A stretch of DNA of 64,000 nucleotides, from positions 2,217,030 to 2,281,029 of the forward strand of contig NZ_CP064788.1 of assembly GCF_017094525.1 (NCBI RefSeq), in the 5' to 3' direction. This DNA is from Halapricum desulfuricans (GTDB lineage Archaea; Halobacteriota; Halobacteria; Halobacteriales; Haloarculaceae). Below, one piece after another: positions 30,216 through 35,314 of this stretch. Position 1 is the stretch's first letter, and the number at the start of each line of letters is the position of its first letter. A program made the position numbers and the translations under genes. The notes under the pieces are model-generated. The model saw only the letters and a list, made by a program, of their open reading frames with translations, was not told the DNA's origin and did not search any database.

Positions 30216-31682
30216 ATGAGTGACGGAACGCTGTACGACAAGGTATGGGACAGACACAAGGTAACCGAACTGCCGAACGGACAGGACCAGCTGTTCATCG
30301 GGCTCCACCTCGTCCACGAGGTCACCAGCCCGCAGGCGTTCGGCATGCTCCGGGAGCGCGATCTGGACGTCGCCTATCCCGAGCGGACCTTCGCGACGAC
30401 CGATCACATCGCGCCCACGACCGAGGAGAAGCGCAAGCGACCGCTCGAGGACGATCAGGCCGAGAAGATGCTGGACGCGCTGGACACGAACACGGCCGAG
30501 AACGGGATCACGTTCTTCGACTTCGAGTCCGGCAAGCAGGGAATCACCCACGTCGTCGCGCCGGAACTGGGCCTGACCCAGCCGGGGATGACCGTCGCCT
30601 GCGGCGACAGTCACACGGCGACTCACGGTGCCTTCGGCTCGATCGGCGTCGGCGTCGGCACCTCCCAGATCCGGGACATCCTCTCGACGGGCTGTATCGC
30701 GGCCGAGAAACAGGACGTCCGCCGGATCGAAGTCGAGGGGAGCCTCGGCGAGGGCGTCTACGCGAAGGACATCATCCTGAAGATCATCCAGCAGCTGGGC
30801 GTCGACGGCGGTGTGGGTCACGTCTACGAGTACGGCGGTCCCGCGATCGAAAATCTGGGCATGGAAGGCCGGCTGGCGGTCTGTAACATGTCCATCGAGG
30901 GCGGCGCTCGCGCCGGGTACGTCAACCCCGACGAGACCACCTACGAGTATCTGGAAGGCCGAGAGTACGTCCCCGAGGGCGAGGCGTTCGAGGAACTGAA
31001 AGAGTACTGGGGGTCGATCGCGAGCGACGCGGACGCCGAGTACGACGACGTGGTCACGATCGACGTCGACGACATGGACCCGATGGTCACGTGGGGCATC
31101 AACCCCGGACAGGTCGTCGAAGTCTCCGAACCGGTTCCCGCGCCCGCGGACTTCGAGACCGAGACCGACCGGGAGGCCGCCCAGAAGGCGCTGGATCACA
31201 TGGACCTCGAACCCGGCCAGTCGATGCTGGGCTACGACATCGACGTCGCGTTCCTCGGCACCTGTACGAACGGGCGGGTGAGCGACTTCCGGCGCGCCGC
31301 CGAGATCCTCGAGGGCCACACGGTCGACGAGGACGTTCGCGCGCTGGCGGTTCCCGGTTCCGAGACCGTCCGCCGGCAGTGCGAGGCCGAGGGCATCGAC
31401 GAGACGTTCATCGAGGCCGGCTTCCAGTGGCGACGCGCCGGCTGTTCGATGTGTCTGGCGATGAACGAGGACTCCCTGGAGGGCGACGAGGCGGCCGCCT
31501 CGTCGTCGAACCGGAACTTCATCGGCCGACAGGGAAGCAAGGACGGGCGGACCGTCCTGATGAGCCCCGTGATGGTCGCCGCCGCGGCCATCGAGGGTGA
31601 AGTGACCGACGTTCGCCGATTCTACGATGACGATCAGGCCGATGCACTGACCGCTGACGATGTCTCGGAGGTGGCTGACTGA
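30216..31682 (+). CDS. leuC: 3-isopropylmalate dehydratase large subunit
   Basis: A 488-residue aconitase-family subunit that converts 2- to 3-isopropylmalate with LeuD. The [4Fe-4S] cysteines are in FLGTCTNGR and AGCSMCLAMN. Substrate motifs TTDHIAPT and ACGDSHTATHGAFG are intact. ATG 30216 (MSDGTLYDKVWD) matches the family start; an in-frame extension overlaps ilvC. Its stop overlaps the leuD start by one base (TGATG). Confidence 0.93.
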   Translation: MSDGTLYDKVWDRHKVTELPNGQDQLFIGLHLVHEVTSPQAFGMLRERDLDVAYPERTFATTDHIAPTTEEKRKRPLEDDQAEKMLDALDTNTAENGITFFDFESGKQGITHVVAPELGLTQPGMTVACGDSHTATHGAFGSIGVGVGTSQIRDILSTGCIAAEKQDVRRIEVEGSLGEGVYAKDIILKIIQQLGVDGGVGHVYEYGGPAIENLGMEGRLAVCNMSIEGGARAGYVNPDETTYEYLEGREYVPEGEAFEELKEYWGSIASDADAEYDDVVTIDVDDMDPMVTWGINPGQVVEVSEPVPAPADFETETDREAAQKALDHMDLEPGQSMLGYDIDVAFLGTCTNGRVSDFRRAAEILEGHTVDEDVRALAVPGSETVRRQCEAEGIDETFIEAGFQWRRAGCSMCLAMNEDSLEGDEAAASSSNRNFIGRQGSKDGRTVLMSPVMVAAAAIEGEVTDVRRFYDDDQADALTADDVSEVAD

Positions 31683-32287
31683 TGGTCGACAAACCTCAGC
31701 ACATCACAGACGTATCGGGTTCGGGCGTACCGATCTACGGCGACGACATCGACACCGACCAGATTCTACCGGCGCGGTTCATGAAAGAGGTCACCTTCGA
31801 GAACATGGCCGATTACCTCTTCTACGACGCGCGCCGCGACGAGGACGGCGAGTTCAACGATCACTCGCTCAACCGGTTCGAGGGGGCGAACGTCGCCGTC
31901 GTCAACAAGAACTTCGGGATGGGATCCTCGCGCGAACACGCCCCGCAAGCGATGATGCGGTGGGGCATTGACGGGATCGTCGGCGAGTCCTACGCCGAGA
32001 TCTTCCGCGACAACTGCAAGTCACTGGGGATCCCCGCGGCGACTGCGGACCACGAAACGGTCACCGAACTCCAGGAGTGGATCGAGGACAACCCCGACGG
32101 CGACATCGAGATCGACGTCGAGACGGAGACGGTCACCTACGGCGACACGACCGTCGACGTCGAGATCGACGACGCGATGCAGGAGGCGCTCGTCGAGGGC
32201 ATCTGGGACACGACCTCACTGATGTACTCCAACATGAGCAAAGTCGAGGAGACCGTCGCGGACCTGCCCTACGTCGAGGCCGAGTAG
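31682..32287 (+). CDS. leuD: 3-isopropylmalate dehydratase small subunit
   Basis: A 201-residue swivelling-domain subunit. Key segments are YGDDIDTDQILPARF, NFGMGSSREHAPQAM (the substrate-binding GSSREH) and FRDNCKSLGIPA. It is coupled to leuC by a TGATG overlap. It is the last gene of the cluster: leuB (3-isopropylmalate dehydrogenase), which often follows in haloarchaea, is absent, and the next gene converges from the opposite strand. Confidence 0.93.
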   Translation: MVDKPQHITDVSGSGVPIYGDDIDTDQILPARFMKEVTFENMADYLFYDARRDEDGEFNDHSLNRFEGANVAVVNKNFGMGSSREHAPQAMMRWGIDGIVGESYAEIFRDNCKSLGIPAATADHETVTELQEWIEDNPDGDIEIDVETETVTYGDTTVDVEIDDAMQEALVEGIWDTTSLMYSNMSKVEETVADLPYVEAE

Positions 32288-32293
32288 CGATCG

Positions 32294-32833
32294 TCAATCA
32301 GCGCTGGCACTCGCTGTGGCGTATTTTCCGGCCGAGAGGTCGAACGCCTCGCCGTCGAAGGTGGCGACGGATTCACAGAGATTCGAGAAGAGTACCCGCA
32401 GTTCGGTCCCGGAGGTGGCACTGTCGAGGTGGTACGCACCCAGTGCGTCCGCACGACGGACCCGCTCGCTCAGCAGGTGCAGGAACTTGAACAGCGGTTC
32501 TCGTTCGACGAACTGTAACAGCGCCGAGATCGAGTGCAGACAGACGCCGACCCGTTCGTCGTCTCCCTGCAGCAGGGCGTCCATCGCCGTCCCCAGCGCC
32601 GTCAGATCTTCCGGATCGGCGACTGTCGTAACAGACGACGATCGGTCGCCGGCGGGACTGGCGCTCGTCGACCGGGCGAACGTCTCGACGTCGACGTACT
32701 CGACGGACGGTACCTGTCGGGACAACTGACGCAGCTGTCGGTCCCACTCCGCTGGCGTGTGTTCGACAGTAACGACCCCGATCCGATCGAGATCCGCTTC
32801 GAGAGTCCGCTCATCGTGGGCACCTCTGTCCAC
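32294..32833 (-). CDS. DUF7504-like protein, short at the N-terminus
   Basis: A 179-residue protein similar to haloarchaeal DUF7504 proteins, which look like degenerate RecA/KaiC-type ATPases. The visible core is VGVCLHSISALLQFVEREPL, LHLLSERVRRADALGAYHLD and LFSNLCESVATFDG. The only start is GTG 32833. The N-terminal strand and P-loop region expected in longer homologues are not present, so it may be truncated. It lies 6 bases from leuD, tail to tail, and 190 bases from the divergent DUF7503 peptide gene. Confidence 0.6.
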   Translation of the reverse strand: MDRGAHDERTLEADLDRIGVVTVEHTPAEWDRQLRQLSRQVPSVEYVDVETFARSTSASPAGDRSSSVTTVADPEDLTALGTAMDALLQGDDERVGVCLHSISALLQFVEREPLFKFLHLLSERVRRADALGAYHLDSATSGTELRVLFSNLCESVATFDGEAFDLSAGKYATASASAD

Positions 32834-33023
32834 CCGGGCTCATGTTACAGGAACAAATACCCTGCAATATCAAGAATGTTATGCCGGCACACGCGAATCG
32901 CCAGCAGTGCGTGCGACCAGAAGCCGCATCCAGAACCCGATCCGGGACCATTATATCAGCAATTTACTATAATAATTATTTAGAAAAATTCAATCCAACG
33001 CGCGTCGAAGCCGTTCACGCACC

Positions 33024-33164
33024 ATGAGTCAAAGTGCGTCGTCGGTACGAAACTTCGTGGAAGAACACCCCAAATGGATCGGTGTCCTGTTCTGGATGGC
33101 CGTGCTGCTTACGCAGGCCGGGACGGCTGTGGGCGGTCACGCTAGCTCGACAGTTGGTCCATAA
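33024..33164 (+). CDS. DUF7503 family small membrane peptide
   Basis: A 46-residue protein, MSQSASSVRNFVEEHPKWIG then a hydrophobic helix (VLFWMAVLLTQAGTAVGG) and the tail HASSTVGP. It matches the short haloarchaeal DUF7503 peptides. It ends two bases before the stop of the CHAT protease gene on the other strand. The AT-rich stretch at about 32950-32990 gives a strong promoter. It has one membrane span and a small polar tail; the role is unknown. Confidence 0.7.
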   Translation: MSQSASSVRNFVEEHPKWIGVLFWMAVLLTQAGTAVGGHASSTVGP

Positions 33165-33166
33165 CC

Positions 33167-35314
33167 TCAGTCAAACGGATAATTTTCGCTCCAATGTATT
33201 GATCCGCCAATTTCTACAGGGAATCCATGTTTATTGAAGAAAGCGTTGACATCCCCCGTGAGCAGCCAGTCTTTCGTTTCACTTCCTGCAAGATATTGTT
33301 TTGTCATCTTATCTAATTTTGGAGATATGAGTGTTCCCATCGCATAGTTTTTTGATGGATAGAATTGGAGTTTTATATATAATTCTCCATCTTTATTCGA
33401 GGCTTTTGCTAAGTACGGGGATCCAGTCTGGCTCTCTACAATTTGTGTATTCCCATCACCGACAATCAAATAATGGTTTCCGACTATGCTCTTCCGCTCC
33501 AACAGTTCTAGCGCTGAAAAGAGAGAAAAGCCACCATCAAGCAGGTGGGCCAACGTCTTCCCGAGATCCGTCGCTGTCTTGTTCAACAGGTCCGCGACAG
33601 TTACAATCCCGCCGATCGATCCTTTCTTGACGAGCGCCCGGCCCTGTTCGTAGGACTTGCACGCGTTCAAAAGGAACGCACTGACGTTGACTTCCTCCAG
33701 CGTCCGGGTATCGAGCCAGCCGTCGGTACACCGGATCCCTTCCTCGTCGACGTGGCCGATGTAGTGGAAGAAATCGGCGTCGGTCGCCAGCACGTCCTCC
33801 ATTTCGTCGGTCGTGAGCTCGTGGCGGATCGTGATGTCGAAATCGAGCCATTCCCGGGTTCCATAGATATCGGAAACGACGTTCTCATCGGCCATCTCTT
33901 CTTCGTTGGAGACGACGATAACGCTCGTTCGCGCGTCCTCCGAAGGCTGATATCGAAGCCGACGCATAAACGCCTCGGTGGTGAGCTTGCTGGCCCGGAT
34001 CGGGATCCCGTCGCCGACGTACGCCTGTTCGATGCTGTCGGACTCCGGGGGCCGAAACACGTGCTCTTCGAACGGTCCGCTAGAGTCGGACCGTGACGCC
34101 CGCGTCGAACGGGTCGGCGTCGAGCGCGAGCGCTTCGAACTCGGGCCGAAGAAGTCCTCGACTGTCGCCACTCCGTCATGAACTGAACGCGATTGGATCT
34201 CCGACTCGGCCAGAGTTCGGATCTTCGCCAGGTCGTTCGCCAGGAAAGGCAGCGCTTCAGCGTGTTCCGGTTTCGGGACGATATCGGCGGTTAGTTTCCA
34301 CCGCGGCATGGCGTCCGCGATGTCCTCGAAGGGGATCGACAGGTAGGTCCGGACCTGCGCTGCAGTCGACTGGTCGTACAGCGCCTCGAAGTCGAGATCG
34401 ACGGCATCCTCGACGACCTTTCGCTCGTGCAGGTCGACCGTGTAGTAGCCCTCGGTTCGTGTGACACAGTCCATGAGAAAGGCCTGTTCGAGCACCCGTG
34501 CGACGGTCGACTCGAAGTCCCCGTCGGCCGTCAACGAAAACGTCTCGCCGTCTGCACGTAGTCGCGGTCGCTCGCCCGGGACGACCGTCGCTCCCAGGTA
34601 GTAAGCCAGCGACGCGACCGGATAGACGTAGTCTCGCTCCCGCGGGACTTCGATTCGGATTCCAGTTTCGGGCACGTCAAGTACGTCCGGCACGTCGAGT
34701 TCCTCTCCGCGTTCGAGCAAGGGCGGATGCCCTCGCAGCGTCGGGAACGATCGCTCACAGGAGGTGGTCTTCAGTGCCGATCCGAACGCTGATATCGCGG
34801 CCATCAGGTCCTCGGGGTCGTCCGTCGTCGTGATCGTCGCCGCCGGCTGTTCGTGCAGCGATCGAGCGCCGATAGACACGCACTCTGACTCCGCGAAGTC
34901 GAGTCGCACGCGGTCTTCGCCCGTCGTAACGCGTACGCTTCCCTCGACTGCGATGTAGAGTTTCATCTGGGCGGACGATACTTCCAGATTGTACCGTCCC
35001 GGTGGGACCGCTATCGATCCCTCGTCGGTGCTCTCCGCGACCAACTCCCCCTCCCCGTCCCGGATCCAGATGTCGACGAGGTACGGCGTCTCGAGTGCTG
35101 GCGTACAGATAGACGCTGCAGTGTCGACAGGGAAATAGAACTCATCAGGATTGCCCGACGTCGGCTCGACGGAAGCAGGTGTCAACAGCGAGAACTGCGA
35201 CCCTTCGATCGGATCGACGATTCTGACGCCGTCGAACAGCGGGTGGGGCTGCACTCGCGGGTGCGTGCTGTCCGTACGCGTCTGCCCGCCGTGTTCCGAC
35301 CGGTTCGTAGTCAC
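33167..35314 (-). CDS. CHAT-domain (caspase-like) protein
   Basis: A 715-residue protein. The N-terminal 500 residues contain a beta-rich region (SIAVPPGRYNLEVSSAQMKLYIAVEG) and an alpha/beta middle part. The CHAT domain occupies about 500-680, with the catalytic His in FFHYIGHVDEEG and Cys in AFLLNACKSYEQG, followed by GGIVTVADLLNKTA and LIVGDG. CHAT proteases act in programmed cell death and defence in bacteria. A Ser/Arg-rich linker lies near residue 400. It is tail to tail with DUF7503 and close to DUF7504. Confidence 0.75.
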   Translation of the reverse strand: MTTNRSEHGGQTRTDSTHPRVQPHPLFDGVRIVDPIEGSQFSLLTPASVEPTSGNPDEFYFPVDTAASICTPALETPYLVDIWIRDGEGELVAESTDEGSIAVPPGRYNLEVSSAQMKLYIAVEGSVRVTTGEDRVRLDFAESECVSIGARSLHEQPAATITTTDDPEDLMAAISAFGSALKTTSCERSFPTLRGHPPLLERGEELDVPDVLDVPETGIRIEVPRERDYVYPVASLAYYLGATVVPGERPRLRADGETFSLTADGDFESTVARVLEQAFLMDCVTRTEGYYTVDLHERKVVEDAVDLDFEALYDQSTAAQVRTYLSIPFEDIADAMPRWKLTADIVPKPEHAEALPFLANDLAKIRTLAESEIQSRSVHDGVATVEDFFGPSSKRSRSTPTRSTRASRSDSSGPFEEHVFRPPESDSIEQAYVGDGIPIRASKLTTEAFMRRLRYQPSEDARTSVIVVSNEEEMADENVVSDIYGTREWLDFDITIRHELTTDEMEDVLATDADFFHYIGHVDEEGIRCTDGWLDTRTLEEVNVSAFLLNACKSYEQGRALVKKGSIGGIVTVADLLNKTATDLGKTLAHLLDGGFSLFSALELLERKSIVGNHYLIVGDGNTQIVESQTGSPYLAKASNKDGELYIKLQFYPSKNYAMGTLISPKLDKMTKQYLAGSETKDWLLTGDVNAFFNKHGFPVEIGGSIHWSENYPFD

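Follow-up and report, generated by a model that had tools for sequence, protein, structure and literature searches.

Predicted CHAT-family proteases of haloarchaea are encoded convergently with small peptides that end in Gly-Pro

Introduction

Among described systems, one of the closest to the locus studied here is Craspase of type III-E CRISPR, which consists of the TPR-CHAT protein Csx29 and its substrate Csx30, the C-terminal residues of the substrate being needed for cleavage (PMC10028731). Our locus in Halapricum desulfuricans shares with Craspase a predicted CHAT protease that has a His-Cys dyad, together with a partner encoded at the same locus. Unlike Craspase, it has no TPR (no Pfam match), no Cas7-11 and no CRISPR, and its neighbours are leuD and trmO; the partner is a predicted 46-residue membrane peptide with a Gly-Pro end, and the module is near-universal in haloarchaea.

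Multi-copy or small peptide systems are also known, e.g., yeast alpha-factor, Bacillus Phr/Rap and streptococcal SHP/Rgg. Our literature search found no paper naming either of the small families at this locus, DUF7503 and DUF7504, and no description of a CHAT protein paired with a Gly-Pro (GP) peptide.

Results

Layout of the locus

The window is the whole 64,000-nucleotide stretch of H. desulfuricans DNA that was analysed, and positions count from its first letter. Its relevant features, including a neighbouring housekeeping gene, are:

31682-32287 (+), leuD
32294..32833 (-), DUF7504, degenerate KaiC/RecA-fold protein by prediction (PF24336, E=3.8e-19)
32961..32994 (+), AT-rich promoter-like stretch 5' of DUF7503, TATA-like TTTAGAAAAATTCAA, judged by eye
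33024..33164 (+), DUF7503 peptide gene, 46 aa (PF24335, E=1.8e-16)
33066..33134 (+), HPK motif (residues 15-17) and hydrophobic helix (18-37, with a small-residue end, TAVG 34-37), from the DUF7503 alignment
33135..33161 (+), DUF7503 C-terminal tail GHASSTVGP (residues 38-46)
33167..35314 (-), predicted CHAT/clan-CD cysteine protease gene, 715 aa, GTG start
33659..33661 (-), predicted catalytic Cys552 codon (NACKS), invariant in A1
33752..33754 (-), predicted catalytic His521 codon (FHYIGH), invariant in A1

The original prediction had placed the 3' end of the CHAT gene two bases from the DUF7503 gene. This gap was correct, the stop codons of DUF7503 (33162-33164) and CHAT (33167-33169) having 2 bp between them; what had not been spelled out is that the two genes lie on opposite strands and converge, so that this is not an operon arrangement. 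DUF7504 and DUF7503 are divergently oriented, and leuD and trmO give the trio housekeeping surroundings in the window; in L032 the trio has different surroundings, with ftsZ and a PP-loop ATPase gene. By eye, AT-rich stretches like that at 32961-32994 occur 5' of DUF7503 in most relatives, and it is possible that they represent a shared promoter or regulator site. An RNA element at the locus was also considered and dismissed, as Rfam gave no match.

Fold and predicted active site of the CHAT protein

Both motifs attributed to the 715-residue protein were located, FHYIGH at residues 516-521 and NACKS at 550-554. Searches with the protein itself against Pfam, NCBIfam and PADLOC returned no match, and the Pfam CHAT family (PF12770) was matched by 14 of 69 homologues (best 6e-7). 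Sequence searches also found no relatives with solved structures. AlphaFold2 gave a confident model (pLDDT 89.3, pTM 0.90), with which Foldseek retrieved gingipain R, separase and SAVED-CHAT, and lower down procaspase-3; the best fold matches were the separase and gingipain entries 5fby, 5fc2, 4ief and 1cvr, at just 11-14% identity. Since the fold search confirms the assignment despite the miss against Pfam CHAT, we take the protein to be a divergent CHAT/clan-CD cysteine protease, as judged from its modelled fold and its dyad. Loss of the His-Cys pair in homologues had been named as a result that would count against the original prediction; instead, His521 and Cys552 were kept in 87 of 89 unique full-length homologues, and His517 and Cys529 were kept in all 89.

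In the model, a beta-rich N-terminal domain (residues about 20-163) is followed by a conserved alpha/beta middle domain (about 167-370) with invariant R188, R194, P224, R286 and P337, a disordered linker (about 380-412), the CHAT domain proper (about 425-620) and a C-terminal extension. The large N-terminal part made up of the beta-rich and alpha/beta domains belongs to no known family.

The DUF7503 peptide and its Gly-Pro tail

The window peptide scored 59.9 bits against a PF24335 gathering score of 27 and has a short N-terminus, the HPK motif, a single hydrophobic helix and a nine-residue tail ending in Gly-Pro. In the alignment of 81 unique DUF7503 sequences this layout reads [HN]P[RK]xxGxLFT, hydrophobic helix, SQAG, a small-residue site, 8-10 variable residues and Gly-Pro; [HN]P[RK] and G20 are near-invariant, position 35 is mostly A/V, position 37 is A/G/S only, and 30-33 residues separate the HP motif from the C-terminus. 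The R/K ahead of the helix suggests an N-in topology.

Gly-Pro formed the C-terminal end in 79 of the 81 sequences, the other two lacking it. A by-product of overlapping stop codons was dismissed as its source because the GP end was kept at all loci where the CHAT-DUF7503 gap exceeded 20 bp, with gaps up to 350 bp. A SecM-like arrest peptide was likewise dismissed, since no codirectional gene lies downstream and the tandem form described below has repeated GPs inside its chain. Between close DUF7503 pairs pN/pS was 0.55 for the tail, 0.19 for the helix and 0.42 for the N-terminal segment, ratios that are descriptive only because the pairs are not phylogenetically independent.

Distribution and pairing across haloarchaea

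The original prediction had made co-occurrence across haloarchaea a test of the idea, and the association held. Among 391 genomes, each a species of class Halobacteria, we found CHAT in 365 (about 94%), DUF7503 in 335 (about 86%) and DUF7504 in all 391; DUF7503 was present in 335 of the 365 CHAT genomes vs none of the 26 CHAT-less ones (Fisher p=2.5e-25, a value that overstates the association because species are not independent). Most of the 30 genomes with CHAT and no DUF7503 match have a divergent CHAT only, and six belong to genus g51. At the best 30 CHAT loci a convergent DUF7503 was present in 30/30, and at the best 30 DUF7503 loci, picked regardless of CHAT, a convergent CHAT was present in 30/30, one of them broken (L046). 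The stops usually lie -4 to +20 bp apart, and the convergent arrangement is far beyond chance. Of the locus sets used across this study, several were hand-picked.

Some genomes depart from a single intact pair. At L046 (genome G367) an intact DUF7503 adjoins a CHAT split into several frames, and G367 carries a further DUF7503 copy of equal score elsewhere. Four genomes of genus g19 (G004, G005, G025 and G034) each have one CHAT paralogue with an in-frame TGA in the match, reflecting either a pseudogene or an alignment that extends 5' of the start. Genome G273 (genus f6/g27) has about 14 CHATs and six DUF7503 copies, every one of which adjoins a CHAT. Some CHAT paralogues are plasmid-borne; the module is mostly chromosomal.

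In a survey of partners in a non-random sample of 121 unique CHATs, 80 had a DUF7503 ending in GP, 15 had another convergent GP-ending ORF (nine being the tandem form, and that at L099 doubtful), and 26 had no GP partner by that rule, among them two with a DUF7503 lacking GP (L077, L121) and one whose GP peptide fell under the hydrophobicity cut (L131). For about two dozen sampled CHATs, mainly of one divergent subfamily, a GP peptide was not recognisable. GP-ending hydrophobic peptides scoring under the Pfam-seeded model lie beside divergent CHATs in L131 (4328-4540, -), L132 (4463-4618, -) and L133 (2452-2586, +), and are probably distant relatives of DUF7503. CHAT homologues also occur in four genomes outside the class (L160-L163; family f19, methanogen side), where they share a common gene neighbourhood and no convincing GP peptide was found beside them; for this reason the pairing looks specific to Halobacteria.

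A tandem-repeat form of the tail in genus g51

A recognisable DUF7503 is missing in nine of 12 species of genus g51. In those nine, a helix-less protein is encoded at the same site, 3 bp from the end of the CHAT ORF. It has a DUF7503-like start (MSExDSGTV and variants) and then 2-14 or more units of the form ADGN..(I/V)SGP, e.g., ADGNGGGISGP, linked by [YFMS][TN], and it lacks a hydrophobic segment, signal peptide or export signal. The repeated unit corresponds to the DUF7503 tail (GHASSTVGP in the window). The helix form is retained in L141, L147 and L148, and the L141 tail, NGGGISGP, exactly matches the repeat core of L138, L140 and L142. Since L148 (helix form) and L149 (tandem form) are supported sisters, the switch between forms probably happened more than once. 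The tandem loci are listed among L104-L109 and L138-L149; the L146 array holds a run of N, probably an assembly gap.

The repeats are identical or nearly so within species and different between species. Units within one gene differ by pN 0-0.05 vs pS 0.2-0.58, the clearest array being that of L139, whose 13 units are all distinct as DNA (pS 0.58, pN 0); the units are under purifying selection. Because the helix was lost and the tail units were kept, it is apparently the tail that functions, with the helix serving as an exchangeable carrier. For the peptide, the roles of substrate, pore former and sensor had been proposed. Substrate or sensor is plausible, while the pore former is weakened by these nine species, which keep only the repeated tail.

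DUF7504

The description of DUF7504 as degenerate and RecA/KaiC-like agreed with our searches. The window copy scored 70.3 bits against a PF24336 gathering score of 27, the family profile matches KaiC at 2e-5, and AlphaFold2 with Foldseek pointed to FlaH and KaiC. CHAT-adjacent copies have no Walker A GK[ST] or lysine and read like GCNLLVTGxVxxxx, so that the family appears, from profile and model, to be a KaiC-fold pseudo-ATPase. Of 55 pairs, 40 have a DUF7504 no more than 1.3 kb away (17 directly upstream of CHAT, 23 beyond DUF7503), and the remaining 15 have none within that distance. Relative to its congener L002, the copy in the window has lost 91 bp that include the first strand, which would bear Walker A, and its native ATG frame (MSGLS...) is out of frame with the body; it is probably N-truncated, or may be decayed. 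The deletion (32823-32833 region, at the DUF7504 5' end) is flanked by near-identical CTCGGAGCGG/CTCGAAGCGG repeats.

Discussion

We propose that these genes form a haloarchaeal regulatory module whose CHAT protease has the GP tail as its ligand or substrate, a reading to which we give about an even chance. The CHAT protein would be a clan-CD cysteine protease equipped with a large N-terminal region for sensing or regulation, and the convergent gene would supply a carrier whose working end is the short C-terminal peptide ending in Gly-Pro, displayed singly behind a membrane helix in most species and as 2-14 copies on a soluble chain in g51. The GP peptide would be the cognate ligand or substrate that the CHAT protein recognises and possibly frees by cleavage; how much of the peptide there is, or its membrane location, would set protease activity as part of a stress or regulatory response, with DUF7504 perhaps an accessory subunit for scaffolding or signalling. 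That the proteins touch, that the peptide is processed and what the module does for the cell are what we infer here. The co-occurrence across genomes, the conserved dyad and modelled fold, the GP end, the repeat arrays with their purifying selection, the L141 tail that equals its relatives' repeat core, the convergence in both locus sets, the differing housekeeping surroundings of the trio and the paralogous and divergent CHATs, often accompanied by convergent GP peptides of their own, speak for such a module; CHATs with no GP peptide, the two DUF7503 sequences without GP and the pairs lacking a nearby DUF7504 speak against it. We consider rather doubtful the wider idea that this is class-wide archaeal peptide signalling, with short GP oligopeptides coming from a membrane precursor or, in one genus, from alpha-factor-like multi-copy precursors, and CHAT processing or sensing them.

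The favoured reading and its rivals overlap in their predictions. DUF7503 might instead stay unprocessed as a membrane tether or securin-like inhibitor, its GP tail permanently docked in CHAT as a pseudosubstrate or adaptor that keeps CHAT inactive or membrane-held, and the tandem form would then be a multivalent soluble scaffold. Inhibitors of the pseudosubstrate or propeptide type are known for separase and gingipain, the nearest folds, the carrier length is fixed, and multiplicity can replace the helix in g51; a scaffold, however, has no obvious need for identical 11-residue units in which just the two-residue linker varies, and we judge this reading rather unlikely. Identical units in multiple copies under purifying selection, differing between species and found in g51 only, would also be expected of a secreted pheromone-like signal, for which the helix would be a signal peptide cut after a small-residue -3/-1 site, releasing the 8-10 residue GP tail, with the tandem form as multi-copy precursor and CHAT as receptor or processor. 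Residues 35 and 37 would suit signal peptidase I at column 37, and tails evolve faster than the helix. Secretion is nonetheless unlikely in our view: the tandem form has neither hydrophobic segment nor signal peptide, the annotated neighbours include no exporter or importer, and conservation of the helix exceeds that of ordinary signal peptides.

The locus had been considered typical of suicidal defence, in which infection would activate CHAT and cleavage of DUF7503 would permeabilise the membrane. CHAT and caspase-like proteases do act in Craspase and CBASS defence, and some genera have enlarged sets of paralogues (14 matches in G273), with some paralogues on plasmids. This part of the original prediction was not borne out, because the module is near-universal rather than patchy, mostly present as one conserved copy on the chromosome with housekeeping genes around it, and was not found in viral contigs or phage records, nor did the PADLOC defence library match at the locus; nine g51 species, moreover, do without the helix. 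We regard suicidal defence as very unlikely.

Comparison with known systems

Returning to the GP-ligand reading, our results suggest a previously unrecognised peptide-controlled protease system; what is new is the GP end and the interchangeable membrane and tandem-repeat carriers of the tail. If this is true, peptide control of proteolysis in archaea becomes testable in tractable hosts. Caspase-like activity is strong in haloarchaea: Seth-Pasricha et al. (2012) found abundant caspase-4-like activity in Haloferax volcanii and called for the responsible protein(s) to be identified (PMC3615174). Such activity has also been reported for non-haloarchaea, most of which lack the CHAT family of the window. 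We propose this family as a candidate source of the H. volcanii activity: as a predicted clan-CD protease occurring in about 94% of haloarchaeal species, it offers a direct candidate for an orphan caspase-like activity, and one that can be tested.

The CHAT domain aligns with that of the SAVED-CHAT filaments of CBASS (PDB 8tl0) over about 195 residues only, but our protein has no SAVED domain (Pfam, PADLOC) and no cyclase neighbour, and its N-terminal region is unrelated by Pfam. Separase with securin and gingipain R share the clan-CD catalytic arrangement and are the best fold matches, whereas identity is low and DUF7503 is unrelated to securin or to the gingipain propeptide. The resemblance to alpha-factor, Phr/Rap and SHP/Rgg lies in a small gene beside its partner gene, a short C-terminal peptide and, in g51, tandem copies alike within and different between species; DUF7503 differs from these in that its partner has a protease fold and is not a TPR regulator or GPCR, and in that its tandem form lacks a signal peptide.
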